Source: Bacteroidaceae bacterium (GTDB lineage Bacteria; Bacteroidota; Bacteroidia; Bacteroidales; Bacteroidaceae). From it: a stretch of DNA of 38,427 nt. Below the pieces are notes generated by a model that was not told the origin of the DNA, searched no databases, and saw nothing but the letters and a program-made list of their open reading frames with translations. Numbering within the stretch: position 1 is the stretch's first letter; every line of letters starts with the position of its first letter. The stretch spans positions 1-38,427 of the forward strand of contig JAFZVN010000012.1 in the NCBI GenBank assembly GCA_017617805.1. Direction: 5' to 3'. Shown piece after piece: positions 7,118 to 38,427 of the stretch. The translations under genes and the position numbers were made by a program.

Positions 7118-8026
7118 TTAGCATACATCAAAAAACCTATTCAACTTATTCCAGAATGAAGCGATGGTTAATCTCGTTCTGAAAATATCTGGCTCGTGAA
7201 GTTCCATGCCTCTGGCATCAAGATATTGCTGCCGTAGATTTTTTACGGCATTTCCTGTCTTTAAAGAGTTTATACATTGCGTGTAATAATTGAAGAGAGT
7301 AGGGTACAGATTTGTGAAATCATCATTAATAGCGTAGGCCATCACAAGATGCTCTTCGTCAAGGTTCAAGTGTTCACCATGAAGTAATCTTGCACGAAAC
7401 TTGACTACATTTTGTTTCATGCGGTGAACCGTCACACGATATGCAATGTGTGTCATGCCAAGTGCCTCGGCCATCTCCCTGTCCGAGATAGCTCGTTGGC
7501 TATTGAGGATCGTTAGTAAGGTACGAAGGAAGATGAAACGTCCACGAGGATAGAACACCTGATGGGCATAAGCAATCAATTGTGAGGCGATGGTGAGTTT
7601 TTGTTCGTCAGAAAGAGAATCGTCAGATGGGTGGAATTCGTGGTCAGAATGGGTGGAATGCGTCATCCGTTCTTCTACCTTCACACGATTGCTGAGGTAA
7701 TTTCGGAAAGTATTCAGCAGCCATGTCTCAAAGGCATTTTTGTTCTTGATGCGTTGTAACGACTGATAGGGATAACGGCCACTTTCACGAAGATATAGAA
7801 AATAGTCCTCAATGATATCCTCGAAATCATCATACAACTGCTGATGAAAAACATCATATCGCTCACGTAACTGGTGCTCTAACCGTTGATGCAATAGGTA
7901 GTACATCGCCTCATCATTCCTGTCTTTTTTCTGGAGAATGATGTCCACAAAGTCAGAAACGGGGATACCGGCAAAAGGACTAACCTTAGTCTTCGAACAT
8001 TTAACATCAGCTGTCATTTTATCCAT
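7118..8026 (-). CDS. Atypical sigma-70 family (ECF-like) RNA polymerase sigma factor
   Basis: A 302-residue protein. Residues around 60-115 resemble sigma region 2: an acidic helix with DDFEDIIEDYFLYL, then NAFETWLLNTFRNYLSNRVK. Residues around 165-215 resemble region 4, a helix-turn-helix: RTLLTILNSQRAISDREMAEALGMTHIAYRVTVHRMKQNV. An acidic and His-rich linker joins the two, and about 85 residues follow region 4 without a recognised motif. Overall order and spacing fit an ECF-like sigma factor with a C-terminal tail, but the motifs are diverged; a DNA-binding regulator using the same fold is the alternative. No anti-sigma factor gene is adjacent. M4 (8017) is an alternative start; the promoter box only 10 nt upstream makes either start plausible. 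Its target genes are unknown. Confidence 0.6.
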   Translation of the reverse strand: MDKMTADVKCSKTKVSPFAGIPVSDFVDIILQKKDRNDEAMYYLLHQRLEHQLRERYDVFHQQLYDDFEDIIEDYFLYLRESGRYPYQSLQRIKNKNAFETWLLNTFRNYLSNRVKVEERMTHSTHSDHEFHPSDDSLSDEQKLTIASQLIAYAHQVFYPRGRFIFLRTLLTILNSQRAISDREMAEALGMTHIAYRVTVHRMKQNVVKFRARLLHGEHLNLDEEHLVMAYAINDDFTNLYPTLFNYYTQCINSLKTGNAVKNLRQQYLDARGMELHEPDIFRTRLTIASFWNKLNRFFDVC

Positions 8027-8035
8027 ATTTTACTG

Positions 8036-8043
8036 CAAAAGTA
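8036..8043 (-). promoter_or_regulatory. Promoter -7 box very close to the sigma-factor start
   Basis: On the minus strand, TACTTTTG (plus 8036-8043) matches TAnnTTTG. It ends only about 10 nt before the ATG at 8026, so the leader would be a few nucleotides long. No -33 box is at the ideal distance; TTTGG lies slightly further upstream (8068-8072). Confidence 0.45.
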
Positions 8044-8318
8044 CAAAAAAGAACACAAGAAACCCTCCAAAGATGAAAATATCTTCATTTTGAATGTAAC
8101 ATTTCCCCCTTTCCCATACTATAAGGGTAGAAAGTTGAACAGAAAACAATAACATTATGACACTAAAAGAACCAGGATGATTTTCTCGGCACCATCAATC
8201 ATGAAACGCATGAAAAAATTCTCTTCGACAGGTGGCATTCTGGTTTAAAAAGAGGTTTTTTGTTGGCTGTTCGGTCATTTTATTATATATTTTCTTTCGT
8301 GGTTAGAATAAAATGTCG
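8044..8318. other. Intergenic region, no gene recognised
   Basis: This gap lies between the divergent sigma-factor and WecA-like genes. It contains only very short frames such as the one starting ATGACACTAAAAG at 8157, with nothing to support them. A weak CCCTT / AAGGG pairing occurs near 8108-8128. I see no RNA gene. Confidence 0.5.
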
Positions 8319-8326
8319 TACTTTTG
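8291..8326 (+). promoter_or_regulatory. Promoter of the glycan/SulP operon
   Basis: TACTTTTG (8319-8326) fits the -7 box. TTTCTTTCG (8291-8299) provides a plausible -33 region about 19 nt upstream. The first ATG of the operon is at 8360, giving a leader of about 30 nt. Confidence 0.55.
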
Positions 8327-8359
8327 CAGTTGTAATATGTTTTCTTTTGGAAAAAGAGT

Positions 8360-9805
8360 ATGAATACCTGGCTTCTTTATATCATCATAGCCGCTGTTTT
8401 GGTGGTTGCAGAATTGATATACTTTCGTGTAGCGGACAAGTATAAATTTGTGGATCAATCGAACGGGAACACTCCTACTGTCACAAGAAAGGGCGGTGGC
8501 GTGATTTTCTTGTTGTCTATCGTGATTTGGGGTGTGATGATGTTGTCGTTGGGCAATGAAATTGTCGATTATATTCCTTTTTTTAGTGGACTTTTGCTGA
8601 TTGCAGGAGTGAGTTTCTTTGAAGAATTCCGTCCTGTATCTGATTCCATACGCATCTCTGTCCAATTCATCGCCATGGGACTCATGTTCTGGACTTTGGG
8701 GGTCATGTATATGGATTTGTGGTGGAAAGTGTTGGTTGCCCTTATCTTGTTTGTGGGCACCATCAATGTCATAGGTTTTATGGATGGAGTCAATGGCATT
8801 ACGGCCGGATATAGTCTTGTCGTGTTATTGTCGTTGTTCTTGCTCAATGGTCAACTTGACAAACATTTCATACTAGACTCTTTTTTGGGTGTGTCTATCC
8901 TGGGCGTTTTAGTATTTGGATTCTATAATTTTAGACCGAGTGGAAAGGCAAAAGTATTTGCGGGTTCTGTCGGTTCTGTCGGAATCGCTTTCATCATGCT
9001 GTTTGCCATAGGAAAACTGATTATTCAGACGAGTGATCTCACGTGGTTGGTATTCCTTGTCGTTTATGGTGTCGACGGGTGTCTGACCGTTTTCCATCAG
9101 CTCATACGGCGAGAGAGTTTGGGAAGAACTCACAGAAAACATGCATATCAGCTGATGGCGAATGAGTTGGGGATGAATCATGTGACCGTAAGCTTGATTT
9201 ATATGGGTTTGCAGTTGGTGATTTCCTTAATCATGATTTATTGGATTCCTAACCAAGCTGGCGCACATTGGACTTATCTGATTGTTGTAACATTAGTGCT
9301 CAGTGTGGCATATATCCTCTTCATCAAGAAATATTTCCATTTGTATGAGGCGTATTTGCAGCAAAAGAGATTGGAAAAGACTGAGAGAATCACGCCTGAT
9401 GTATTAGATCAGCTGACGATGCAGGCTCAAGCTACGCCAAGCAGGAGCATGGATTATGATTTTTGCAATACCGATAAAAGCATGTCACACAGAATGCTGA
9501 TGGCTATAGAGCCTCAGTCTTCCGTCCCGTTGCATAGACCTCAGAAAGCTTCGGAAACGGTGGTTTGTTTGCGAGGAAGGTTGGTCGAGGAATTATATGA
9601 TGAAGTAGAACGGCGTTGTGTGGAAGACATCGAATTGTCTCCTAATGGACCCGTGGTGGCATTGAACATTCCAACAGGGCAATGGCACAGGGAACGGGCT
9701 TTAGAGAACGGAACGGTGATCATGGTGGTGAAGGAAGGCAAGTCGGAGACGAAAAAGAAGTCTCTGGTGTATGCCGACGGTCATTACGAGATGTCGAAAG
9801 AATGA
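8360..9805 (+). CDS. WecA/MraY-type glycosyl-1-phosphate transferase fused to a WbuC-like cupin
   Basis: 481 residues. Residues 1-330 form a polytopic membrane enzyme of the MraY/WecA (GT4) family, which moves a sugar-phosphate from a UDP-sugar to undecaprenyl phosphate to start glycan assembly. Visible motifs are TVTRKGGG (40-47), NVIGFMDGVNG (136-146), FYNFRPSGKAKVFAGSVGS (188-206), and the cytoplasmic RTHRKHAYQ (256-264). From about residue 355 a soluble domain follows that resembles WbuC-type cupins: SHRMLMAIEPQSSVPLHR, KASETVVCLRGRLVEELYDE, IPTGQWHRERALENGTVIMV. WbuC proteins are normally separate. The usual HRH metal-ligand pair reads HRP here (392-394), so one histidine is missing, while H443 remains. 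The gene heads a glycan operon and is 28 nt from the next gene. The initiating sugar is unknown. Confidence 0.85.
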   Translation: MNTWLLYIIIAAVLVVAELIYFRVADKYKFVDQSNGNTPTVTRKGGGVIFLLSIVIWGVMMLSLGNEIVDYIPFFSGLLLIAGVSFFEEFRPVSDSIRISVQFIAMGLMFWTLGVMYMDLWWKVLVALILFVGTINVIGFMDGVNGITAGYSLVVLLSLFLLNGQLDKHFILDSFLGVSILGVLVFGFYNFRPSGKAKVFAGSVGSVGIAFIMLFAIGKLIIQTSDLTWLVFLVVYGVDGCLTVFHQLIRRESLGRTHRKHAYQLMANELGMNHVTVSLIYMGLQLVISLIMIYWIPNQAGAHWTYLIVVTLVLSVAYILFIKKYFHLYEAYLQQKRLEKTERITPDVLDQLTMQAQATPSRSMDYDFCNTDKSMSHRMLMAIEPQSSVPLHRPQKASETVVCLRGRLVEELYDEVERRCVEDIELSPNGPVVALNIPTGQWHRERALENGTVIMVVKEGKSETKKKSLVYADGHYEMSKE

Positions 9806-13901: not shown

Positions 13902-15593
13902 ATGAAAGAAAGCATGAAGAGATTTCGTCCTTCCAGACCCGAGTTGTTCTACACGCTCAAGAACTACAACAAGCAGAAATTCACAGCCGACCTCATGGCA
14001 GGTATCATTGTGGGTATTGTAGCACTACCCCTTGCCATCGCCTTCGGTATCGCCTCTGGTGTATCGCCAGAAAAAGGCATTCTGACAGCCATCATCGCCG
14101 GTTTCGCCATCAGTGCCTTTGGTGGAAGCCGTGTGCAGATTGGCGGTCCTACAGGTGCCTTCATCATCATCATCTATGGCATCATCCAGCAATACGGACT
14201 CACAGGGCTTGCCATCGCCACAGTGATGGCAGGTCTATTCCTTATTCTATTAGGAGTGCTGCGTTTGGGTACCATCATCCGCTATATCCCCTACCCCATC
14301 ATCGTGGGTTTCACCAGCGGTATTGCCCTGACCATCTTCTCCACCCAAGTGAAAGATCTTTTGGGTCTCCACATTGAGGGTTCCGTACCTGCCGACTTCA
14401 TCGAGAAGTGGATTTGTTACATCCAGAACTTCTCCACCATCGATTTAGCCACAGCTTTGGTGGGCATCCTTTCTGTGGTCATCATTGCCTGCACCCCCCT
14501 CATCAGCAAGAAGATACCAGGTTCCCTTGTGGCACTCATCATCATGACGATCGCAGGCATCATCATGACGAATTACTTCGGCATCCATGTCGATACCATT
14601 GGCGACCGCTTCGACATCAATCCTTCTGTACCTGATGCAGACATTCCAGCCCTCGATTGGGAGAACATCAAAGAACTCATCTCTCCAGCCATCACCATTG
14701 CCGTGTTGGGTGCAATCGAGAGTCTGCTCTCAGCCACAGTGGCAGATGGTATCATTGGCCATAAGCACGACTCCAACCAAGAGCTGATTGGTCAGGGTGT
14801 GGCGAATGTGATCAGCCCTATCTTTGGTGGTATTCCTGCCACAGGAGCCATCGCACGTACCATGACCAACATCAACAATGGAGGCCGTACCCCAATCGCA
14901 AGTATCATCCATGCAGTGGTGCTCCTGCTGATATACTTCTTCCTCATGCCATACGCCAAATACATCCCAATGGCTTGTTTGGCAGGTGTGCTCGTGGTGG
15001 TGAGTTACAATATGAGTGGTTGGCGTACCATCCGTGAGATGATGCACAACCCCAAGAGCGACATCTTTGTGCTGTGGCTCACCTTCGGACTCACAGTCAT
15101 CTTCGACCTGACCATTGCCATCGAGGTGGGTCTGATGTTGGCATGTCTGCTCTGCATGCGTCGTATGGCTGAGACCACACAGGTCAGTGTGTTGACAGAC
15201 GACGATGAGATTGACCCAACGGCAGAGACTGACTTGGCAGAGAATCCCAACATCGAGCATCTCACCATTCCAGAGCATGTGGAAGTGTACGAAATCAATG
15301 GTCCTTACTTCTTCGGCATCGCCAATAAGTTCGAGGAGGTGATGGTACGCATGAAGGAGCGTCCACAGGTACGTATCATCCGTATGCGTAAGGTTCCTTT
15401 CATCGACTCCACAGGCATGCACAACCTGACGAACCTCATCGAGATGTCGAAGAAGGAGAACATCAAGATCATCCTTTCAGGTGTGAACGACTACGTGCAT
15501 GGCGTGCTGACCAAGAATGGTTTCAACGAATTGATTGGCGAAGAGAACATCTGTCCAAACATCAATGTCGCACTCGAACGAGCCCAACAATAA
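13902..15593 (+). CDS. SulP family inorganic anion transporter with STAS domain
   Basis: 563 residues. Around residues 15-430 are some ten or more membrane segments with SulP hallmarks: FTADLMAGIIVGIVALPLAI near the start, GVSPEKGILTAIIAG, GGSRVQIGGPTGAF, and a late ATGAIARTMTNINNGGRTPI. The C-terminal 110 residues form a cytoplasmic STAS domain (VEVYEINGPYFFGIANKF, then VPFIDSTGMHNL, with the Ser/Thr of the DST motif). SulP proteins carry sulfate, bicarbonate or related anions; which one applies here cannot be read. The gene follows the GT2 by 22 nt and its end overlaps the next gene, so it seems to be in the glycan operon by position only. Sulfate uptake would be of interest given the sulfur genes at the right end of the window, but that link is speculation. 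Confidence 0.93.
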   Translation: MKESMKRFRPSRPELFYTLKNYNKQKFTADLMAGIIVGIVALPLAIAFGIASGVSPEKGILTAIIAGFAISAFGGSRVQIGGPTGAFIIIIYGIIQQYGLTGLAIATVMAGLFLILLGVLRLGTIIRYIPYPIIVGFTSGIALTIFSTQVKDLLGLHIEGSVPADFIEKWICYIQNFSTIDLATALVGILSVVIIACTPLISKKIPGSLVALIIMTIAGIIMTNYFGIHVDTIGDRFDINPSVPDADIPALDWENIKELISPAITIAVLGAIESLLSATVADGIIGHKHDSNQELIGQGVANVISPIFGGIPATGAIARTMTNINNGGRTPIASIIHAVVLLLIYFFLMPYAKYIPMACLAGVLVVVSYNMSGWRTIREMMHNPKSDIFVLWLTFGLTVIFDLTIAIEVGLMLACLLCMRRMAETTQVSVLTDDDEIDPTAETDLAENPNIEHLTIPEHVEVYEINGPYFFGIANKFEEVMVRMKERPQVRIIRMRKVPFIDSTGMHNLTNLIEMSKKENIKIILSGVNDYVHGVLTKNGFNELIGEENICPNINVALERAQQ

Positions 15594-30734: not shown

Positions 30735-30768
30735 ATTTGTAATTTGTAAATGGTAAATTGTACATGAA
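30735..30768 (-). repeat. AT-rich junction repeat between murF-alr and the C10 gene
   Basis: On the minus strand the spacer reads CATGTACAATTTACCATTTA and then CAAATTACAAATT. It matches the repeat at 38017-38050 and 33571-33606 apart from a missing TGACGATT portion. It fills nearly all of the 47-nt gap between two genes. Confidence 0.7.
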
Positions 30769-30769
30769 A

Positions 30770-33337
30770 TTATTCTTGTATATACACCCTCTGCACGCGA
30801 TTGCTGATACCCGTAAGCACCTCGTATGGGATGGTGCCAAGGGCATCGCTGAGCACAGTGACAGGGAGATTGTCACCAAAGATTTCGACCATATCACCTT
30901 CCTTACAATCGATGTCAGTCACATCTATCATGCAGACATCCATGCAGATATTTCCCACATAGTCAGCCTTCTGCCCATTCACAAGACAATAACACCCACG
31001 ATTGCCGAGGTGACGATTGAGTCCATCAGCATAGCCGATAGGGATAGCAGCGATTCGGCTGTCACGTTCCAACGTAGTGCGACGTGAATAACCGATGCTG
31101 TCACCCTTAGGCACCTCACGAATCTGAAGAATGGTGGTCTTGAGGGTCGCCACATTATTTAATATGTGGTTGTTGCGAGCGTTGATGCCATAGAGTCCTA
31201 AACCAAGGCGCACCATGTCGAGGTGGTATTCGGGGAAGTGCTCAATACCTGCGGAATTGCATATATGACGAATGATCTTGTGGGAGTAAGCCGCCTGCAA
31301 CTGACGGCTGGCCTCATCGAAAAGCTGGAACTGCCGACGTGAGAAAGCATCGAACTCATCGCCATCGCTGCCCACAAAATGACTGAACACTGAACAAGGC
31401 ACAAGTGCTGTCTGACGGCGCAGACGTTCAATGAGGCGAGGCATATCCTTCTCTGGATTGAAACCCAGACGATGCATGCCTGTATCGAGCTTGATGTGGA
31501 TGGGGAAGTTGGTCACGCCCTCCTTCTCCGCCGCATGGATAAGCTGTTCGAGCAGGTCAAAACTGAACACCTCGGGTTCGAGGCTATAGTCAAAAAGCAT
31601 CTTGAACGAGGTGGTCTCAGGGTTCATGATCATGATGTTGGCGGTGATGCCTGCCTCACGAAGGTCTGCCCCTTCATCAGCCACTGCCACAGCGAGGTAA
31701 TCCACCCCATTGTCCTGCAAGGTTTTGCTCGTCTCCAACGAACCCACACCATAACCGCTCGCCTTTACCATGCACACCATCTTGGTCTCTGGATGCATGA
31801 AGCGGCGATAGTAACGCACATTGTTGACCAAAGCATTGAGATTCACCTCAAGGATGGTCTGGTGTACTTTCAGCGTCAGCAGGTCGCTCACCTTGTCGAA
31901 ACGGAAATGACGTGCGCCCTTGATCAAGATGAACTCATTGTGTAGCTGGTCAAACACCTCACTGCGGATGAGGGCATCGGTCGTGCGGAACATGTAGTGC
32001 TCCATGGGGAAATAGTCAGCGCAAGCACTGAGTTCCTCGCCCACACCAATCACTTTCTCGATGCCACGCGAAGCAGCCATCTGTGCCACACGCGAATAGA
32101 GGCTCTTGGGCGATTCGCCACTCTGCAAGATGTCGCTGAGAATCAAGGTGCGATGCTGCCGTTTCGTCTCAGGACGCCGGCACATGAAGTCAAGAGCAAT
32201 ATCAAGCGACTGCACATCAGAGTTGTAGGAATCGTTGATCAGAGTACACCCATTCTTGCCGTCCTTCACCTCCAAGCGCATCGCCACCTGCTCCAGATGA
32301 GCCATGCGTTCGCACAAGATAGAGACCCTCTCTGCCCTATGGGCATCTCCCCCGTAATGGGGAGAGCCATCCGGCTTGTTCTCAAATGACAAAGACCCCG
32401 CATGGGCGCCCTCCCCATTACGGGGGAGGGTTGGGGAGAGGGTCTGGAGTGTCAGCACCGTAGCAAAGCAGGTGATAGAGTTCTCAATAGAGGCATCATC
32501 GATAAAGGGGATGGTGTATTGCCCCACCCTACCCTCATGTTCGAAGTAGATGGTGGCACTGTCATGATCCTTCTCTATGCGCCTCACTTTCAACGATACC
32601 CTTCCGATGTTATCAGGTAAGGTTTCAGCACAGCGGTGGATGGTGGCATTATCAGAATTGATCACGACCGTCTGACAATGGGCGAAGAGTTGCATCTTCT
32701 CCGCACACTTGATGTCGTAACTCATGAAATTCTCTTGATGCGCCGCACCCAGATTGGTCATCACCCCAATGGTGGGCCTCACGATGCGTTCCAATTTTCC
32801 CATCTCACCAGGCTGTGAAATACCAGCCTCGATAATGGCAAGGTCGTTGTGGGGATTGATGAGCCACACACTCAACGGCACACCCACCTGGCTGTTATAA
32901 CTGCGGGGGGAACGGCACACATTGTAATCGGGCGAAAGCAACTGATACAACCATTCCTTCACCGTGGTCTTTCCGTTCGAACCCGTGATACCAATCACAG
33001 GAATGTTCAACTGACTGCGATGATACGCCGCCAAATCCTGCAAAGCTTGTAGAGGTGATTTCACCATCAGGAAATTGCAGTTCTCTAACGACAAACTCTG
33101 CGGTAGCCCTCCCCCATCGGGGGTCGGGGGGCTCACCACGAAGTTTCTCACCCCTCGCCTGTACAACTCCTCTATATACTTATGGCCATCGTTCTTCTCC
33201 GTCTTCAAGGCAAAGAAGAGCGTCTCCTCTGGGAAACAAAGGCTTCGGCTGTCAATCAACAGCCAATTGATTCTCGCCTCCGCAGTTCCCTTTCTCTGTG
33301 CGCCAATCACTTGCGCAATTTCATCTATCGTATACAT
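30770..33337 (-). CDS. murF-alr: Bifunctional MurF ligase / alanine racemase
   Basis: 855 residues. The N-terminal half is MurF, which joins D-Ala-D-Ala to UDP-MurNAc-tripeptide: SRSLCFPEETLFFAL, the ATP site GITGSNGKTTVKEW (116-129), LGAAHQENF, INDSYNSDVQSLDIAL and ILSDILQSGE. The C-terminal half (from about 490) is a PLP-dependent alanine racemase: ILEVNLNALVNNVRYYRR, the PLP-lysine motif MVKASGYGVGS (Lys525), LGLYGIN, and IGYADGLNR. This fusion is known in Bacteroidota. Two palindromic insertions lie in the MurF half: a small one at residues about 69-78 and a 121-bp element giving residues about 298-338. Both keep the frame and fall in loops between recognised motifs. The gene starts 4 nt after the GSCFA stop. 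Confidence 0.96.
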   Translation of the reverse strand: MYTIDEIAQVIGAQRKGTAEARINWLLIDSRSLCFPEETLFFALKTEKNDGHKYIEELYRRGVRNFVVSPPTPDGGGLPQSLSLENCNFLMVKSPLQALQDLAAYHRSQLNIPVIGITGSNGKTTVKEWLYQLLSPDYNVCRSPRSYNSQVGVPLSVWLINPHNDLAIIEAGISQPGEMGKLERIVRPTIGVMTNLGAAHQENFMSYDIKCAEKMQLFAHCQTVVINSDNATIHRCAETLPDNIGRVSLKVRRIEKDHDSATIYFEHEGRVGQYTIPFIDDASIENSITCFATVLTLQTLSPTLPRNGEGAHAGSLSFENKPDGSPHYGGDAHRAERVSILCERMAHLEQVAMRLEVKDGKNGCTLINDSYNSDVQSLDIALDFMCRRPETKRQHRTLILSDILQSGESPKSLYSRVAQMAASRGIEKVIGVGEELSACADYFPMEHYMFRTTDALIRSEVFDQLHNEFILIKGARHFRFDKVSDLLTLKVHQTILEVNLNALVNNVRYYRRFMHPETKMVCMVKASGYGVGSLETSKTLQDNGVDYLAVAVADEGADLREAGITANIMIMNPETTSFKMLFDYSLEPEVFSFDLLEQLIHAAEKEGVTNFPIHIKLDTGMHRLGFNPEKDMPRLIERLRRQTALVPCSVFSHFVGSDGDEFDAFSRRQFQLFDEASRQLQAAYSHKIIRHICNSAGIEHFPEYHLDMVRLGLGLYGINARNNHILNNVATLKTTILQIREVPKGDSIGYSRRTTLERDSRIAAIPIGYADGLNRHLGNRGCYCLVNGQKADYVGNICMDVCMIDVTDIDCKEGDMVEIFGDNLPVTVLSDALGTIPYEVLTGISNRVQRVYIQE
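32324..32444 (-). repeat. 121-bp palindromic element inside murF-alr
   Basis: On the plus strand it opens GACCCTCTCTGCCC and closes GGAGAGGGTC. CTCCCCCGTAATGGGGAG (32347-32364) and CTCCCCATTACGGGGGAG (32411-32428) are perfect inverted copies. Between them lie GCCATCCGGCTTGTT and CCCCGCATGG, both shared with the patB copy. The encoded peptide includes SPTLPRNGEG and KPDGSPHYGGD. Confidence 0.92.
33105..33132 (-). repeat. Short palindromic element inside murF-alr
   Basis: AGCCCTCCCCC, ATC, GGGGGTCGGGGGGCT forms a hairpin and encodes SPPTPDGGGL in MurF. The AGCCC/GGGCT ends recall the GT2 element at 13354. It probably belongs to the same or a sister repeat family. Confidence 0.65.
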
Positions 33338-33339
33338 CT

Positions 33340-33381
33340 TGTCATTTACTATTTGACAATTTATTATTTATAATTTGACGA
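33340..33381. repeat. AT-rich repeat at the GSCFA/murF-alr junction
   Basis: The plus strand reads CATTTACTATTTGACAATTT, ATTATTTATAATTTGACGATG. Its arrangement of ATTTAC, ATTTGACAATTT and AATTTGACGAT links it to the repeats at 33571 and 38017. It encodes the C-terminal tail of the GSCFA protein (IINNKLSNSK) and supplies the spacer before the murF-alr start. Confidence 0.6.
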
Positions 33382-34238
33382 TGTTGGTGTTGCCGCCACT
33401 CTTTCTCAGCTTTTGCCACCACATCTTTTGTCTTATGATCAAAATATGTGTCTTGGAACCGCTGCCAGATATACTCCACCGCCTTGGCTGACGGATGAAT
33501 CATATCATCGGCATAGAAGCGGTAATCCCGCAGTTCGTCCATCATAATCTCGTAAGAGGGGAAATAATTCCATGTACCATTTGACGATTTACCATTTACA
33601 ATTTCGTCAACCGCTTGCAGTAAAATTCCTTTCGAGATTTGGTTCACGTGATAGCCATCCCGTTTATGACGGATGGGACTCACCGTAAAGATGATTCTCA
33701 ACTTCGGATTCACGCTTTCCAACAGTTGCAGGAGCATCTGCCACTGATCCACGATGTCGTAGGCACTCAGCCGCTCCCTCACAAAGAGGCGGTCTGGCTG
33801 TTTATGGCAGTTGGCCACCAACATGCCCGTCTCCTTTAGTCGATAGATGATGGCTGTGCCAAACGTGATCACCAACACATCTGCCTCTCGCAAGAAAGCA
33901 GCCACACACTGGGTGATGCCGTTGATGCGTTCTACAAGTGTCGCCACATCGGATGATGAGAAACAGCTGTGATGCATCCACGAATGCCACACACCATCCC
34001 CATCGCAAAAGACCTCCTCCTTTCCTATTTCCTTTTCACTGATGCTCCTCAACAAACTGGCCGCAATGCTGGCAGGATTATACAGCGTACCAAAAGGATT
34101 CACCATCGCCTCAAAGCCTCCCCTCGCCATCTTCTCCCCTATCTCATCAGCAAAGCAAGAACCCACCAGCAGCACTTTCGCCCCAGCAGGTATCTTCCAC
34201 TCCGACTCAGGAATGTCTATGTGCGTCATCAGTTCCAT
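33342..34238 (-). CDS. GSCFA domain protein
   Basis: 298 residues. The namesake motif is present as VLLVGSCFADEIGEKM (about 23-38), followed by NPFGTLYNPASIA. Later landmarks are VITFGTAIIYR, FTVSPIRHKRDG, YFPSYEIMMDELRDYRFYADDMIHPS and AVEYIW. The family belongs to the SGNH-type esterase/acyl hydrolase-like group in Bacteroidota, with GS and DMIHPS blocks matching the catalytic Ser and Asp-x-x-His positions. The precise substrate is unknown; it is often found with cell-wall genes, which fits its place just before murF-alr. Residues about 211-223 (NGKSSNGTW) come from the AT-rich repeat at 33571-33606. M4 is an alternative start. Confidence 0.88.
   Translation of the reverse strand: MELMTHIDIPESEWKIPAGAKVLLVGSCFADEIGEKMARGGFEAMVNPFGTLYNPASIAASLLRSISEKEIGKEEVFCDGDGVWHSWMHHSCFSSSDVATLVERINGITQCVAAFLREADVLVITFGTAIIYRLKETGMLVANCHKQPDRLFVRERLSAYDIVDQWQMLLQLLESVNPKLRIIFTVSPIRHKRDGYHVNQISKGILLQAVDEIVNGKSSNGTWNYFPSYEIMMDELRDYRFYADDMIHPSAKAVEYIWQRFQDTYFDHKTKDVVAKAEKEWRQHQHRQIINNKLSNSK
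33571..33606. repeat. AT-rich repeat inside the GSCFA coding region
   Basis: On the plus strand CATGTACCATTTGACGATTT, ACCATTTACAATTTCG differs at only two of 34 positions from the intergenic copy at 38017-38050. It is in frame and encodes DEIVNGKSSNGTW on the minus strand. Confidence 0.85.
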
Positions 34239-35017: not shown

Positions 35018-36292
35018 TCAGATAAGTGAGGCCATCCGCTCCAATGCCTCTTTCAGCACATGACGTTGGGTACCCACATTCAAGCGCATGAAGCCCTCGC
35101 CACCAGGACCGAACATCTCACCATCGTTGAGGGCAAGGTGGGCTTGGTTGATAAAGAGGTCGAGGAGTGCCTTGTGGTTCAAGCCCAGGCCACGGCAATC
35201 AAGCCAAACGAGGAAGGAGGCTTGGGGACGAAGTGGCTTGATTTGTGGGATGTGTTGATGGCAATAGTCAACGAGGAAGTCGATGTTCCCCTCCACGTAT
35301 TGAAGCATCTGCTGCCGCCACTCCTCTCCATGCCTCAGGGCAGCGATGGTGGCGATAGGTGCAAACATGTTGGGGTCATCCAATTCATTGGCAGAAAGCC
35401 AATGGTAGAAAGGTTTGCGCAGTTCTTCATTCGGGATGATGCTCCATGAAGAGACGATGCCCGCCATGTTGAAGGTCTTAGTGGGTGCGCCGAATGTGAT
35501 GCTCACCTCGGCAGCCTCTTCGCTCACGGAAGCAAAGGGAATGTGTTTGTTGCCATAGAGTGCCATGTCCGAATGGATCTCGTCACTGATGACGATGAGG
35601 TGATGCTCTTTCGCAAAGTGCGCCAAGCGTTGCAGGGTATCCCTGTCCCACACGATGCCAGCAGGGTTGTGGGGATTGGAAAGGATGAGCAGACGGCACT
35701 TGTCATCACACACCTGATCGAGATTGTCGAAGTCCATCTCATAAAAGACCCTCTCTGTCCTTCGGACATCTCCCCCATAATGGGGAGAACCATCCGGCTT
35801 GTTAGTCGTTTGGGAACACCCCGCATGGTCGCCCTCCCCATTACGGGGGAGGGTTGGGGAGAGGGTCTCTCTCAGTGGATTCCACACCACCTCCCGTTTG
35901 TTTCCTCTGGGTGTCAAAAAGAAGGGATGATAGATAGGGGGCTGGACAATCACTTTCTCGTCCTCCTTCAGGAAGAAGTTGATGACCATACCGATGCCTT
36001 TCACGATGCCAGGAATATAGGTCATCCATTCACGTTCCACCTTCCATTGGTGATGCGTCTCAATCCATTGCTGCACGGTCGGCCAATAGTCCTTGGGCTC
36101 GACCGTATAGCCGAACAAGGAGTGTTCCAGTCGCGCCTTCAATGCGTCTGTGATGAACGCGGGGGTCTCCCAATCCATATCAGCCACCCATAAGGGCAGC
36201 AGATCGCTCCGTCCATATCGTTCCAGAAGCACCTCGTGTTTCAAATCGCCCGACCCTCTGCGGTCAACGGGCTTGTCAAAATCATATATCAT
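35018..36292 (-). CDS. PatB/MalY-type PLP-dependent C-S lyase (cystathionine beta-lyase)
   Basis: 424 residues, about 35-40 longer than usual because of an insertion. It starts DFDKPVDRRGSGDLKHE, followed by LLPLWVADMDWETP, a family signature. The PLP site has SNPHNPAGIVW, VISDEIHSDM and FGAPTKTFNMAG (Lys272). The enzyme cleaves cystathionine or cysteine-like thioethers to thiol, pyruvate and ammonia; which substrate is preferred is not readable. Residues about 142-182 (SPTLPRNGEG, KPDGSPHYGGD) are encoded by the palindromic element at 35747-35867, between WNPL and FYEMDF. It lies downstream of the encapsulin-cysteine desulfurase pair on the same strand but has its own -7 box, so sulfur metabolism links them by function more than by transcript. 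Confidence 0.92.
   Translation of the reverse strand: MIYDFDKPVDRRGSGDLKHEVLLERYGRSDLLPLWVADMDWETPAFITDALKARLEHSLFGYTVEPKDYWPTVQQWIETHHQWKVEREWMTYIPGIVKGIGMVINFFLKEDEKVIVQPPIYHPFFLTPRGNKREVVWNPLRETLSPTLPRNGEGDHAGCSQTTNKPDGSPHYGGDVRRTERVFYEMDFDNLDQVCDDKCRLLILSNPHNPAGIVWDRDTLQRLAHFAKEHHLIVISDEIHSDMALYGNKHIPFASVSEEAAEVSITFGAPTKTFNMAGIVSSWSIIPNEELRKPFYHWLSANELDDPNMFAPIATIAALRHGEEWRQQMLQYVEGNIDFLVDYCHQHIPQIKPLRPQASFLVWLDCRGLGLNHKALLDLFINQAHLALNDGEMFGPGGEGFMRLNVGTQRHVLKEALERMASLI
35747..35867 (-). repeat. 121-bp palindromic element inside the patB-like gene
   Basis: Same length and plan as the copy at 32324: GACCCTCTCTGTCC at one end and GGAGAGGGTC at the other. CTCCCCCATAATGGGGAG and CTCCCCATTACGGGGGAG act as nearly perfect arms, with CCATCCGGCTTGTT and CCCCGCATGG inside. 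One stem mismatch arises at the centre of the left arm (CCATAAT instead of CCGTAAT). Confidence 0.92.
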
Positions 36293-36421: not shown

Positions 36422-38011
36422 TTATCGGTTTTGCACGTCTGCCACAATCTTCTGGAGAGCGATGACCAGACGGTCAACTTCTTCCTTTGTGTTATAGACA
36501 GCAAACGTAGGACGTACTGACATCTCGTAACCCAATGCTCGCAAGGCTGGTTGTGCGCAGTGATGACCTGCTCGGACTGCGATACCTTCTTTGTCGAGCA
36601 GCTGCCCCACCTGAGGAGCAGGTATGCCAGGGATGTCGAGAGAGATGACACTCACACGTTTCTTCGGGTTGCCCATGATAGTGATGCCTGGGATACGGCT
36701 AATCTGCTGACGGGCATATTCGGTGAGTTCGTGTTCGTGGCGTTCGATGTTGTGGATACCCACACTCTGCACGAAGTCAAGTGCATACCCCAAGCCGATG
36801 GCATCGGCAATATTGGGCGTGCCTGCCTCGAAACGTGCTGGCGGCTCATTAAACTCCGTGTGCTCGATGGTTACATCCTTGATCATGTTGCCTCCACCCT
36901 GCCAAGGCGGCAGTTGTTCGAGCCATTCCTTCTTGCCATACACCACTCCGATGCCTGAAGGGCCATATATCTTATGACCAGAGAACACGAAGAAGTCGCA
37001 GTCAAGTTGTTGCACATCCACCTTCGTATGGGCAATGGATTGTGCACCGTCAATGAGCACAGGGATATTGTGGGAGTGAGCCGTTCGGATGATGCTCTCC
37101 ACGTCGTTGATAGTGCCAAAAGTGTTGTTCACATGTCCCACGCTGATGAACTTGGTGTGGGGTGTGATGAGTTGTTCCAATTCTGAGAGGATGAGGTCGC
37201 CGTTCTTGTCGATGGGAATGGCACGAAGTTCTGCTCCTTGCAACTTGCACATCTGCTGCCAGGGCACGATATTGGCATGGTGGTCGAGAGTGGAGACAAT
37301 CACGTTGTCGCCTTTCTCCAAGAATTTCCTGCCGAACGTCTGTGCCACCAGATTGATGCCTTCAGTCGTGCCACGCACAAAGAGGATGTTCTCTTTGGCT
37401 GGAGCATTGATGAAGCGCGCCACCTTCTCACGGGCACCCTCATACTGATCGGTGCTGCGTGCTGCCAAGGTGTGGGCACCACGATGGATGTTCGAGTAGT
37501 CGGTTTTGTAGAACTCGCTCAATCCATCGATGACCCGCAACGGCTTCTGGGTGGTCGCACCATTGTCGAACCACACGAGGTCGTGGCCATTCACCTTCTG
37601 ATGGAGGATGGGGAACTGCTTGCGGATCTCTTCGGTATTCACCGTGTCAGCCTCATCATAGTGGAGGTTGCGCACAATGTCGGTCTCGGGTATTCCGATA
37701 CCGAAGCCGTTATCCTTCAGCAGGCAGTTCTTCTTCTCTGGCTGCACATCGTCCGTGCTTCCAGATGATGGCGCAGAGGGCACTTCATCCGAGAAGTACT
37801 TGGCGATGACTCCTTTGAAGAGTTCCTCGTCAGCGGCACTCAGACTTCCAATTTGGGGAGCATCCACATTCCCGACAGGGGAGGATGCGGCAGGGATGGG
37901 CAATGCAGACAGATCCAACTCGTCTGGCGCCGCATTCGGTACCGCCACCTGTGGTGCTGTGCCCAAATCTGGCAAGTCAAAGTGAAAGTTATCTAGCTCG
38001 TTCAAATACAT
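36422..38011 (-). CDS. SufS-type cysteine desulfurase with disordered N-terminal extension; predicted family 2A encapsulin cargo
   Basis: 529 residues against about 406 for ordinary SufS. The enzyme part starts near residue 127 (EEIRKQFPIL) and is complete: FDNGATTQKP, RGTTEGINLVAQ, TLDHHANIVPW, the PLP lysine FSGHKIYGPSGIG (Lys347), ARFEAGTPN, and the active Cys in RAGHHCAQPALRALG (Cys485). It removes sulfur from L-cysteine, leaving alanine and an enzyme persulfide. Residues 1-125 are rich in Pro, Ala, Asp and Ser with short hydrophobic patches (FHFDLPDLG, LDLSALPIPA, DEELFKGVIAKYF) and look disordered. In family 2A encapsulin systems the cysteine desulfurase has exactly such an N-terminal extension, which directs it into the shell. 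The shell gene ends 37 nt upstream, so an operon is likely. Confidence 0.93.
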   Translation of the reverse strand: MYLNELDNFHFDLPDLGTAPQVAVPNAAPDELDLSALPIPAASSPVGNVDAPQIGSLSAADEELFKGVIAKYFSDEVPSAPSSGSTDDVQPEKKNCLLKDNGFGIGIPETDIVRNLHYDEADTVNTEEIRKQFPILHQKVNGHDLVWFDNGATTQKPLRVIDGLSEFYKTDYSNIHRGAHTLAARSTDQYEGAREKVARFINAPAKENILFVRGTTEGINLVAQTFGRKFLEKGDNVIVSTLDHHANIVPWQQMCKLQGAELRAIPIDKNGDLILSELEQLITPHTKFISVGHVNNTFGTINDVESIIRTAHSHNIPVLIDGAQSIAHTKVDVQQLDCDFFVFSGHKIYGPSGIGVVYGKKEWLEQLPPWQGGGNMIKDVTIEHTEFNEPPARFEAGTPNIADAIGLGYALDFVQSVGIHNIERHEHELTEYARQQISRIPGITIMGNPKKRVSVISLDIPGIPAPQVGQLLDKEGIAVRAGHHCAQPALRALGYEMSVRPTFAVYNTKEEVDRLVIALQKIVADVQNR

Positions 38012-38016
38012 AAATT

Positions 38017-38050
38017 CATGTACAATTTGACGATTTACTATTTACAATTT
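38017..38050. repeat. AT-rich repeat between the encapsulin and desulfurase genes
   Basis: CATGTACAATTTGACGATTT, then ACTATTTACAATTT, fills the short gap between the two genes and touches the encapsulin stop codon (38049-38051). It matches the copy inside the GSCFA gene at 32 of 34 positions. Confidence 0.85.
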
Positions 38051-38427
38051 ATTTTTCTATCTTGTTCCTGTGCTGATAGTCGTGGTAGTAACCTACCTCC
38101 ACATTCTCCAGCACGGCAATGGCATCGTCGGTGAGCGACGCAAGGCTGAAGTACTTGGTGAGCAAGTAGCTTGCCACGCCATACTGATCAAGACCCATCA
38201 GACGTGCTGAGAGACTTGGGGCAATTTCGCCAGGGATGCCAGCCTGATGCAGACCTACCACGCCCTGTTCCTTCTCACCCACACGTACGAGGATGATGTC
38301 TGTCGTTCCTACGCCACGATTGGTCAAGTACTGTCCCTTCACCTCCACCTTGTCGGATGGAATGATAGGCACACCACGCCAAGTGATGACTTTTGTGCCG
38401 AAGAGGTCGATAGCCACAGGAGGCACA
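38049..38427 (-). CDS. Family 2A encapsulin shell protein, C-terminal part (5' end outside window)
   Basis: The frame is open to the window edge; 125 residues are visible. They fit the C-terminal portion of a SrpI-like (family 2A) encapsulin shell protein, as I recall it: PPVAIDLFGTKVITWRGVPI, IPSDKVEV, IILVRVGEKEQGVVGLHQAG, IPGEIAPSLSARLMGL, then VASYLLTKYFSLASLTDDAI and LENVEVGYYHDYQHRNKIEK. These proteins have the HK97 phage-capsid fold and self-assemble into a closed shell. In known family 2A systems the cargo is a cysteine desulfurase, and the gene immediately downstream here is one with the expected N-terminal extension. No database comparison could be run. The first part of the gene, and any further partner upstream such as a serine acetyltransferase, lies beyond the edge. 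Confidence 0.83.
   Translation of the reverse strand, partial: VPPVAIDLFGTKVITWRGVPIIPSDKVEVKGQYLTNRGVGTTDIILVRVGEKEQGVVGLHQAGIPGEIAPSLSARLMGLDQYGVASYLLTKYFSLASLTDDAIAVLENVEVGYYHDYQHRNKIEK

Follow-up and report, generated by a model that had tools for sequence, protein, structure and literature searches.

The window, by which is meant the whole stretch of DNA analysed here, is a contig of 38,427 bases from a genome in 92 contigs (66% completeness). It ends inside the gene for an encapsulin shell protein, which cannot be read further on this contig; a short spacer and a gene for a cysteine desulfurase (CD) adjoin the shell gene (Table 1). A preliminary description of this DNA had named the last 125 residues of an SrpI-like shell, 37 nt and a SufS-type desulfurase, and the open reading frames and profile matches agree. 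The 125-aa shell fragment, whose ORF (38049-38426) runs off the end of the contig, matches PF19307 (SrpI-like) at 3.3e-39, and the CD matches the sufS profile TIGR01979 at 558 bits (cut-off 475.1) from residue 128. The fragment also matches encap_f2b (3.8e-41), encap_f2a (5.3e-45; 153.8 bits, short of the 380-bit cut-off owing to the truncation) and the solved shells 8t6r (1.6e-34) and 6x8m (1.5e-33). With such profile and structure E-values, the identities of shell and CD are beyond chance. Against NF041166, "family 2A encapsulin cargo cysteine desulfurase", the CD scores 690.8 bits, below the cut-off of 800, and is matched only from profile position 217, leaving the N-terminal part of the model unmatched. 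The broader claim, that a Bacteroidales-type anaerobe carries a Family 2 encapsulin shell adjoining a CD whose N-terminal extension is of the loading type, likewise stands.

Table 1. Features of the shell and desulfurase locus, in window coordinates.
Feature	Position	Strand	Basis or remark
Encapsulin shell protein, C-terminal 125 residues, Family 2B-type	38049..38427	-	gene cut by contig end; profile and structure matches, full-length relatives
Spacer between shell and CD, 37 nt, with short AT-rich repeat	38012..38048	-	repeat recurs elsewhere in genome
SufS-type cysteine desulfurase (CD), 529 aa, putative cargo	36422..38011	-	profile and solved-structure matches
CD N-terminal extension, about residues 1-124, variable, putative loading domain	37640..38011	-	solved SufS chains align from residue 124-125
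FGIGIPE motif of the CD extension	37685..37705	-	motif count in relatives
Lys347 (SGHK) of the CD	36971..36973	-	invariant alignment column; PLP lysine by homology
Cys485 (RxGHHCA) of the CD	36557..36559	-	invariant alignment column; persulfide cysteine by homology
PatB-family C-S lyase, downstream of the CD	35018..36292	-	TIGR04350 430 bits, cut-off 340

Two repeats touch this region. The short AT-rich intergenic repeat TTTACNATTTACNATTTA occurs at 30740-30764, 33353-33370, 33581-33605 and 38027-38051, as well as at other places in the genome; the window holds 7 overlapping matches at these 4 places (0 expected in 100 shuffles), and the spacer repeat as query gives 17 matches in the source genome, itself included. 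A palindromic repeat of ~125 bp lies inside the PatB gene (35740-35890) and inside a MurF-Alr gene (32323-32445), where it reads in frame ..SPTLPRNGEG..NKPDGSPHYGGD.., and it aligns 35 times with the source genome, at roughly two dozen sites. By raw counts, 10 of 13 places examined are inside an open frame of at least 150 aa and 3 are outside, two of the latter having been tested as double elements. Similar inserts are present in the CD extension of the relative G003. The element is reminiscent of the protein-coding palindromic elements of Rickettsia; the literature matches listed for palindromic repeats include no title on Bacteroidales.

A scan of named genomes yielded 384 confirmed loci, the closest 80 of which were kept; all locus counts below describe these 80 and are silent on the other 304. 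Two of the 80 (L147 and L155) come from one assembly. Among these best 80 of 384, 78 record titles name Bacteroidales or a family or genus in it and two name Bacteroidetes. As to hosts, 36 titles carry a ruminant word, 2 name a horse, 26 have only a RUG or RUI code (which we take to denote rumen sets) and 16 have none; none is human or oral, which differs from the host type first assumed. The shells of loci L104-L126 are 89-92% identical to those of the window's genus, and their records are titled Salinivirgaceae, Paludibacteraceae, Bacteroidales and others; this likeness would reflect transfer between families or mixed-up metagenome labels.

The type of the shell becomes legible in full-length relatives, G026 and G003, whose shells are 479 aa long. 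By eye, the window fragment without its cut first codon (124 residues) agrees with the C-terminus of the G026 protein at every position. The preliminary description had proposed comparing a full shell with encapsulin profiles, and the G026 shell answers well: PF19307 matches residues 209-466 (1.7e-111), and encap_f2b scores 557 bits (cut-off 400), compared with 424 bits for encap_f2a (cut-off 380), whose best stretch starts at residue 218. Residues 6-466 align with the solved 2B shell 9bje (1.4e-110), an HK97 relation by sequence homology alone, and residues 105-190 match PF00027 (8.4e-15). A cNMP-binding-like domain within the shell is the published definition of Family 2B, as given in the available text of PMC8346489. 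Because the full shells of the relatives hold this internal domain, the shell is placed in Family 2B, and the system is almost certainly a Family 2B shell with a predicted CD cargo; the domain is read in relatives, the window's own N-terminal part being unassembled. The Family 2A assignment made at first is ruled out by the PF00027 domain and the higher encap_f2b score of these full shells; Family 2B is invisible in the window because the contig ends before the cNMP-like domain. A phosphate-binding Arg-Ser pair characterizes the cNMP domain of CAP. It is replaced in 76 of 77 shells (best 80 of 384 loci; the remaining shell did not fit the pattern used), which agrees with the available text of PMC12407261, where the 2B domains tested bound no cyclic nucleotide. 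The genus set comprises 45 genomes; the shell was searched in 37 of them and additionally read in G455 and G459. PF19307 was found in 22 of the 37, the source genome included, and in none of 24 genomes from other families of the order.

The catalytic part of the CD keeps its active-site motifs. RxGHHCA is present in 75/75 and SGHK in 74/75 CDs (best 80 of 384 loci); we take Lys347 of SGHK to be the PLP lysine and Cys485 of RxGHHCA to be the persulfide cysteine. The N-terminus had been described as 125 residues of low complexity. An extension is indeed present, but residues 100-124 are conserved, with a mean share of the commonest residue of 0.78 vs 0.32 for residues 1-99. The assumption that it is the published 2A loading domain fails: among 79 distinct extensions from the best 80 of 384 loci, the published loading motif YYFL occurs in 0/79, and FGIGIPE or a close form in 79/79. 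These extensions measure 98-183 aa (those under 60 aa were left out). Comparison CDs from two other groups of loci show the reverse, YYFL and not FGIGIPE, in 13/13 Chlorobi-type and 7/7 2A-type proteins, with extensions of 250-371 aa and 250-306 aa, respectively. A KGVIAKYFS-like stretch of the extension resembles, by eye, the published LARLANEFFS motif.

In the 24 genus genomes that carry a long CD, the FGIGIPE pattern occurs once per genome and always in the CD. A search for further cargo bearing the motif found none: the pattern is limited to the 24 CDs and two places in genomes without a CD, namely ORFs of 97 aa and 498 aa, the latter resembling a membrane transporter by eye. The CD extension is therefore best described as a putative loading domain, distinct from the published 2A one, through which the CD would be packaged. 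The shell-associated CD is not the cell's only SufS. A separate SufS of ~405 aa, lacking the extension, is present in 21 of the 24 genomes with a full-length CD; the three genomes lacking a match (G000, G027 and G455) are 66, 84 and 83% complete.

In G026 and G003, the shell and CD close a longer operon that reads regulator, MetY-type enzyme, CysK, ThiS, ThiF, DsrE2, TusA, JAMM, shell, CD; in G026, PatB follows the CD. By family, the operon comprises a GerE regulator (listed with no receiver domain), a Cys_Met_Meta_PP (MetY-type) enzyme, ThiF/MoeB, DrsE_2, TusA and Prok-JAB. CysK exceeds the TIGR01139 cut-off and ThiS that of TIGR01683, DsrE2 scores 70.5 bits against NF047629 (below the cut-off of 210) and the MetY-type enzyme 317.7 bits against TIGR01326 (below 495.1). 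The source genome has the same genes on other contigs: C67 carries JAMM-TusA-DsrE2-ThiF-ThiS-CysK-MetY in that order and C56 carries MetY and the regulator, both collinear with G026. TusA, DsrE2, ThiS, ThiF and JAMM went unnoticed in the preliminary description because they lie off the window contig.

Genomic neighborhood analysis shows that this sulfur relay is tightly linked to the shell. The operon reading started at L031, loci below it being first short copies, and genes were counted where flanks allowed: at least 1.5 kb downstream (77 loci), at least 2 kb upstream (74 loci) or at least 8 kb on both sides (38 loci). Within the best 80 of 384 loci, the first gene recognised downstream of the shell is the CD in 77/77 cases with room, and TusA (74/74) and DsrE2 (73/74) precede the shell. 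ThiS, ThiF and JAMM each occur in 37 of the 38 loci with room on both sides, the miss being L136; CysK follows with 34/38, the MetY-type enzyme with 33/38 and the regulator with 22/38 (same best 80 of 384). PatB, in 7/38 such loci (best 80 of 384), is an accessory at most. All seven core genes are present in 68 of these 80 closest loci (of 384), and among those 68, the only ones covered by the gene-order count, five orders occur (39, 21, 6, 1 and 1 loci). Placed on a quick shell tree, in which 29 of 77 inner branches are weakly supported, the orders require 7 changes. That the genes stay together despite reshuffling points to a shared function rather than to mere inheritance as a block. As a counterpoint, operon linkage can be inherited, and most genomes of the genus share one gene order. 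On balance, the relay is probably tied to the shell functionally, and we infer that it takes its sulfur from the shell and does not merely operate alongside.

The partners of the relay retain their key motifs. The metal motif of JAMM is intact in 69/69 sequences, the Cys-Pro of TusA in 72/72 and the C.M.M of DsrE2 in 76/77 (best 80 of 384 loci). All 69 distinct operon ThiS sequences from the best 80 of 384 loci have FMGG near the C-terminus and, after it, a tail of 2-41 residues; 46 tail sequences occur. A second, thiamine-type ThiS, found in 6 of 11 genomes searched, ends exactly at CGG in 6/6 cases (4 distinct sequences). With a conserved GG and a free-running tail beside a JAMM protease, the operon ThiS has the appearance of a JAMM-trimmed precursor. 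Tailed ThiS, E1 and JAMM thus occur together, the combination that by sequence marks a JAMM-processed sulfur-carrier (protein thiocarboxylate) system.

The distribution across the genus provides further evidence. A long CD is present in 24 of the 45 genomes and a cut CD in G452, on a contig of 3774 bases, making 25. JAMM occurs in 23 of these 25 and in 0 of the 20 genomes without a CD; DsrE2 occurs in 23/25 and 1/20, the sole match without a CD (G018) lying within an 879-aa frame at 41% identity. The two CD genomes without JAMM and DsrE2, G011 and G452, neither support nor contradict the association because their contigs break at the shell or CD. A sulfite-reductase domain was found in only 4 of the 45 genomes, all four with a CD, vs 11 of 14 control genomes, so that a route from sulfate to sulfide is not visible in most members of the genus. 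Apparently these bacteria live on sulfide or organic sulfur; a store is plausible on that basis, though not proved by it. The window also encodes a SulP-type sulfate permease with a STAS domain (13902-15593), in a source genome (66% complete) without a sulfite reductase domain match; its substrate may be another anion than sulfate.

Both halves of the system have published counterparts. The available text of PMC8346489 describes Family 2B encapsulins with CD cargo (199 operons in 9 phyla), which share with the Bacteroidales loci the internal cNMP-binding-like domain, an adjoining CD with a long variable N-terminus and nearby sulfur genes. The most enriched neighbours of CD operons named there are serine O-acetyltransferase and rhodaneses, unlike the DsrE2, TusA, ThiS, ThiF and JAMM found here, although that data set may hold these loci. 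In Family 2A SrpI-CyD, as far as the available text of PMC8049743 goes, the CD also has a disordered N-terminal loading domain; the SrpI shell, however, has no cNMP-like domain, and of the loading motifs LARLANEFFS and AASPYYFLDG the second is missing here. The carrier arm resembles the class 4e JAB/ThiS/E1/SirA operons of Iyer et al. 2006, described with sulfate-assimilation genes: common to both are a ThiS-like protein, a JAB protease, an E1-like protein without a rhodanese domain, SirA (TusA) and O-acetylhomoserine sulfhydrylase, but the available text on class 4e names no encapsulin or desulfurase (PMC1779556). The 2B shell with CD cargo and the ThiS/JAB/E1/SirA operon class are therefore already published, as far as the available parts of PMC8346489 and PMC1779556 go. 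Their union was not found in the open literature among the matches listed, and a search on encapsulin and cysteine desulfurase in Bacteroides found no paper.

The relay is not a feature of every CD encapsulin. The comparison loci, 7 same-class 2A-type and 13 Chlorobi-type, were searched over stretches of 10.6-19 kb, and no match to DsrE2, TusA or JAMM was found in these fetched stretches, which marks the relay as a feature of the present clade. The 13 Chlorobi-type genomes all contain the Fenna-Matthews-Olson family (PF02327), absent from four others tested. Their loci share the 2B shell, the CD next to it, and CysK, MetY and a related regulator nearby, in an order that we read as MetY-regulator-CysK-shell-CD; they differ in having no DsrE2, TusA or JAMM match and in their long, YYFL-bearing CD extensions. 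They do give weak ThiS matches (27-41 bits) and ThiF matches; these look like thiamine genes because they surround a ThiH-like ORF in L177, the one locus read fully. In that same locus, a serine acetyltransferase-like ORF precedes the shell (7778-8737, between CysK and shell; by eye serine O-acetyltransferase-like); a gene of this kind was not noticed at the corresponding place in the Bacteroidales loci. Five Chlorobi-group genomes (G201, G221, G257, G277 and G363; family f42) each encode a pair of full-length 2B shells on separate contigs and are possible two-shell systems.

The Acinetobacter 2A encapsulin is reported to store sulfur. For the Bacteroidales loci, the shell type, CD active-site residues, relay genes, conserved linkage and carrier tail read from sequence suggest a store with an exit route. 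The assembled shell would package the SufS-type CD through its N-terminal extension, and the CD would draw sulfur from cysteine and leave sulfane sulfur inside. Outside the shell, DsrE2 and TusA would relay sulfur toward the ThiS-like carrier, which would be activated by the ThiF/MoeB-type E1, trimmed by the JAMM protease and loaded as a thiocarboxylate. CysK and the Cys/Met-metabolism PLP enzyme could then turn carrier sulfur back into cysteine or homocysteine, the outcome being a sulfur store that could be recharged and would bypass free sulfide. We put the full store-and-remobilise cycle, in which storage and the direction of flow are presumed, somewhat below an even chance. An extended form, in which the cNMP-like domain of the shell also senses a sulfur metabolite and gates withdrawal by the ubiquitin-like arm, is somewhat less likely.

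The weak point of the cycle is sulfur transfer across the shell. No loading extension is visible on TusA, DsrE2, ThiS or JAMM, and FGIGIPE is confined to the CD in CD-bearing genomes, so the relay is probably outside the shell. The SrpI pore measures 3.7 A according to the available text of PMC8049743; so narrow an opening rules out sulfur transfer by a protein, and a small-molecule shuttle must be assumed. Breaking down and remaking cysteine would moreover be futile unless the two are separated in time.

The strongest alternative is carrier-mediated transsulfuration without storage, in which the encapsulated CD feeds TusA, DsrE2 and ThiS for MetY-type homocysteine synthesis and the shell only shields a reactive intermediate. 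The frequency of the MetY-type enzyme (33/38 loci with room, best 80 of 384) speaks for it, as does precedent: ThiS/JAB/E1/SirA with O-acetylhomoserine sulfhydrylase is row 4e of the published operon classes (PMC1779556), and Wolinella has a published thiocarboxylate-dependent route to methionine (reference 34 in PMC5764234), each as far as the available text shows. We nevertheless consider it unlikely, though a serious contender: the cysteine-remaking CysK is equally common (34/38, best 80 of 384), the MetY-type enzyme scores below curated cut-offs for any one activity, and passage of a protein or small molecule through the shell is required here too. Next comes a sulfur-assimilation regulon, in which the carrier set makes cysteine from sulfide and the encapsulated CD stores the surplus, with no direct exchange. 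The 7 2A-type and 13 Chlorobi 2B-type loci, with no relay match in the fetched stretches, indicate that a CD shell need not be accompanied by the relay. This account is also unlikely, and ranks behind the first, because the persulfide carriers TusA and DsrE2 keep their place upstream of the shell more tightly than any other gene, which fits a sulfane and not a sulfide source, and the relay set is absent from genus genomes without a CD. Supply of iron-sulfur cluster or cofactor sulfur, as by an ordinary SufS, would suit the SufS-type catalytic domain but is highly improbable, with a separate SufS in 21 of 24 genomes; Fe-S genes were not noticed beside the shell.

For CD encapsulins, the available text of PMC8049743 leaves an acceptor model and a storage model side by side: SrpI-CyD is induced by sulfur starvation, and storage is suggested as one of the two. 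An outside acceptor and polysulfide stored inside are both compatible with the present loci, and rhodanese has been proposed as the acceptor in the available text of PMC8346489. With encapsulin and carrier joined, the choice of sulfur acceptor becomes accessible to experiment. Through several rearrangements, one clade of anaerobes has retained next to the shell a full candidate route for sulfur exit, and this names the proteins to test. The route would link encapsulins with ubiquitin-like sulfur carriers, both of them known machines, and the new N-terminal motif FGIGIPE would extend the encapsulin loading code. The conserved relay suggests how shell-banked sulfur could return to use in rumen-related anaerobes.
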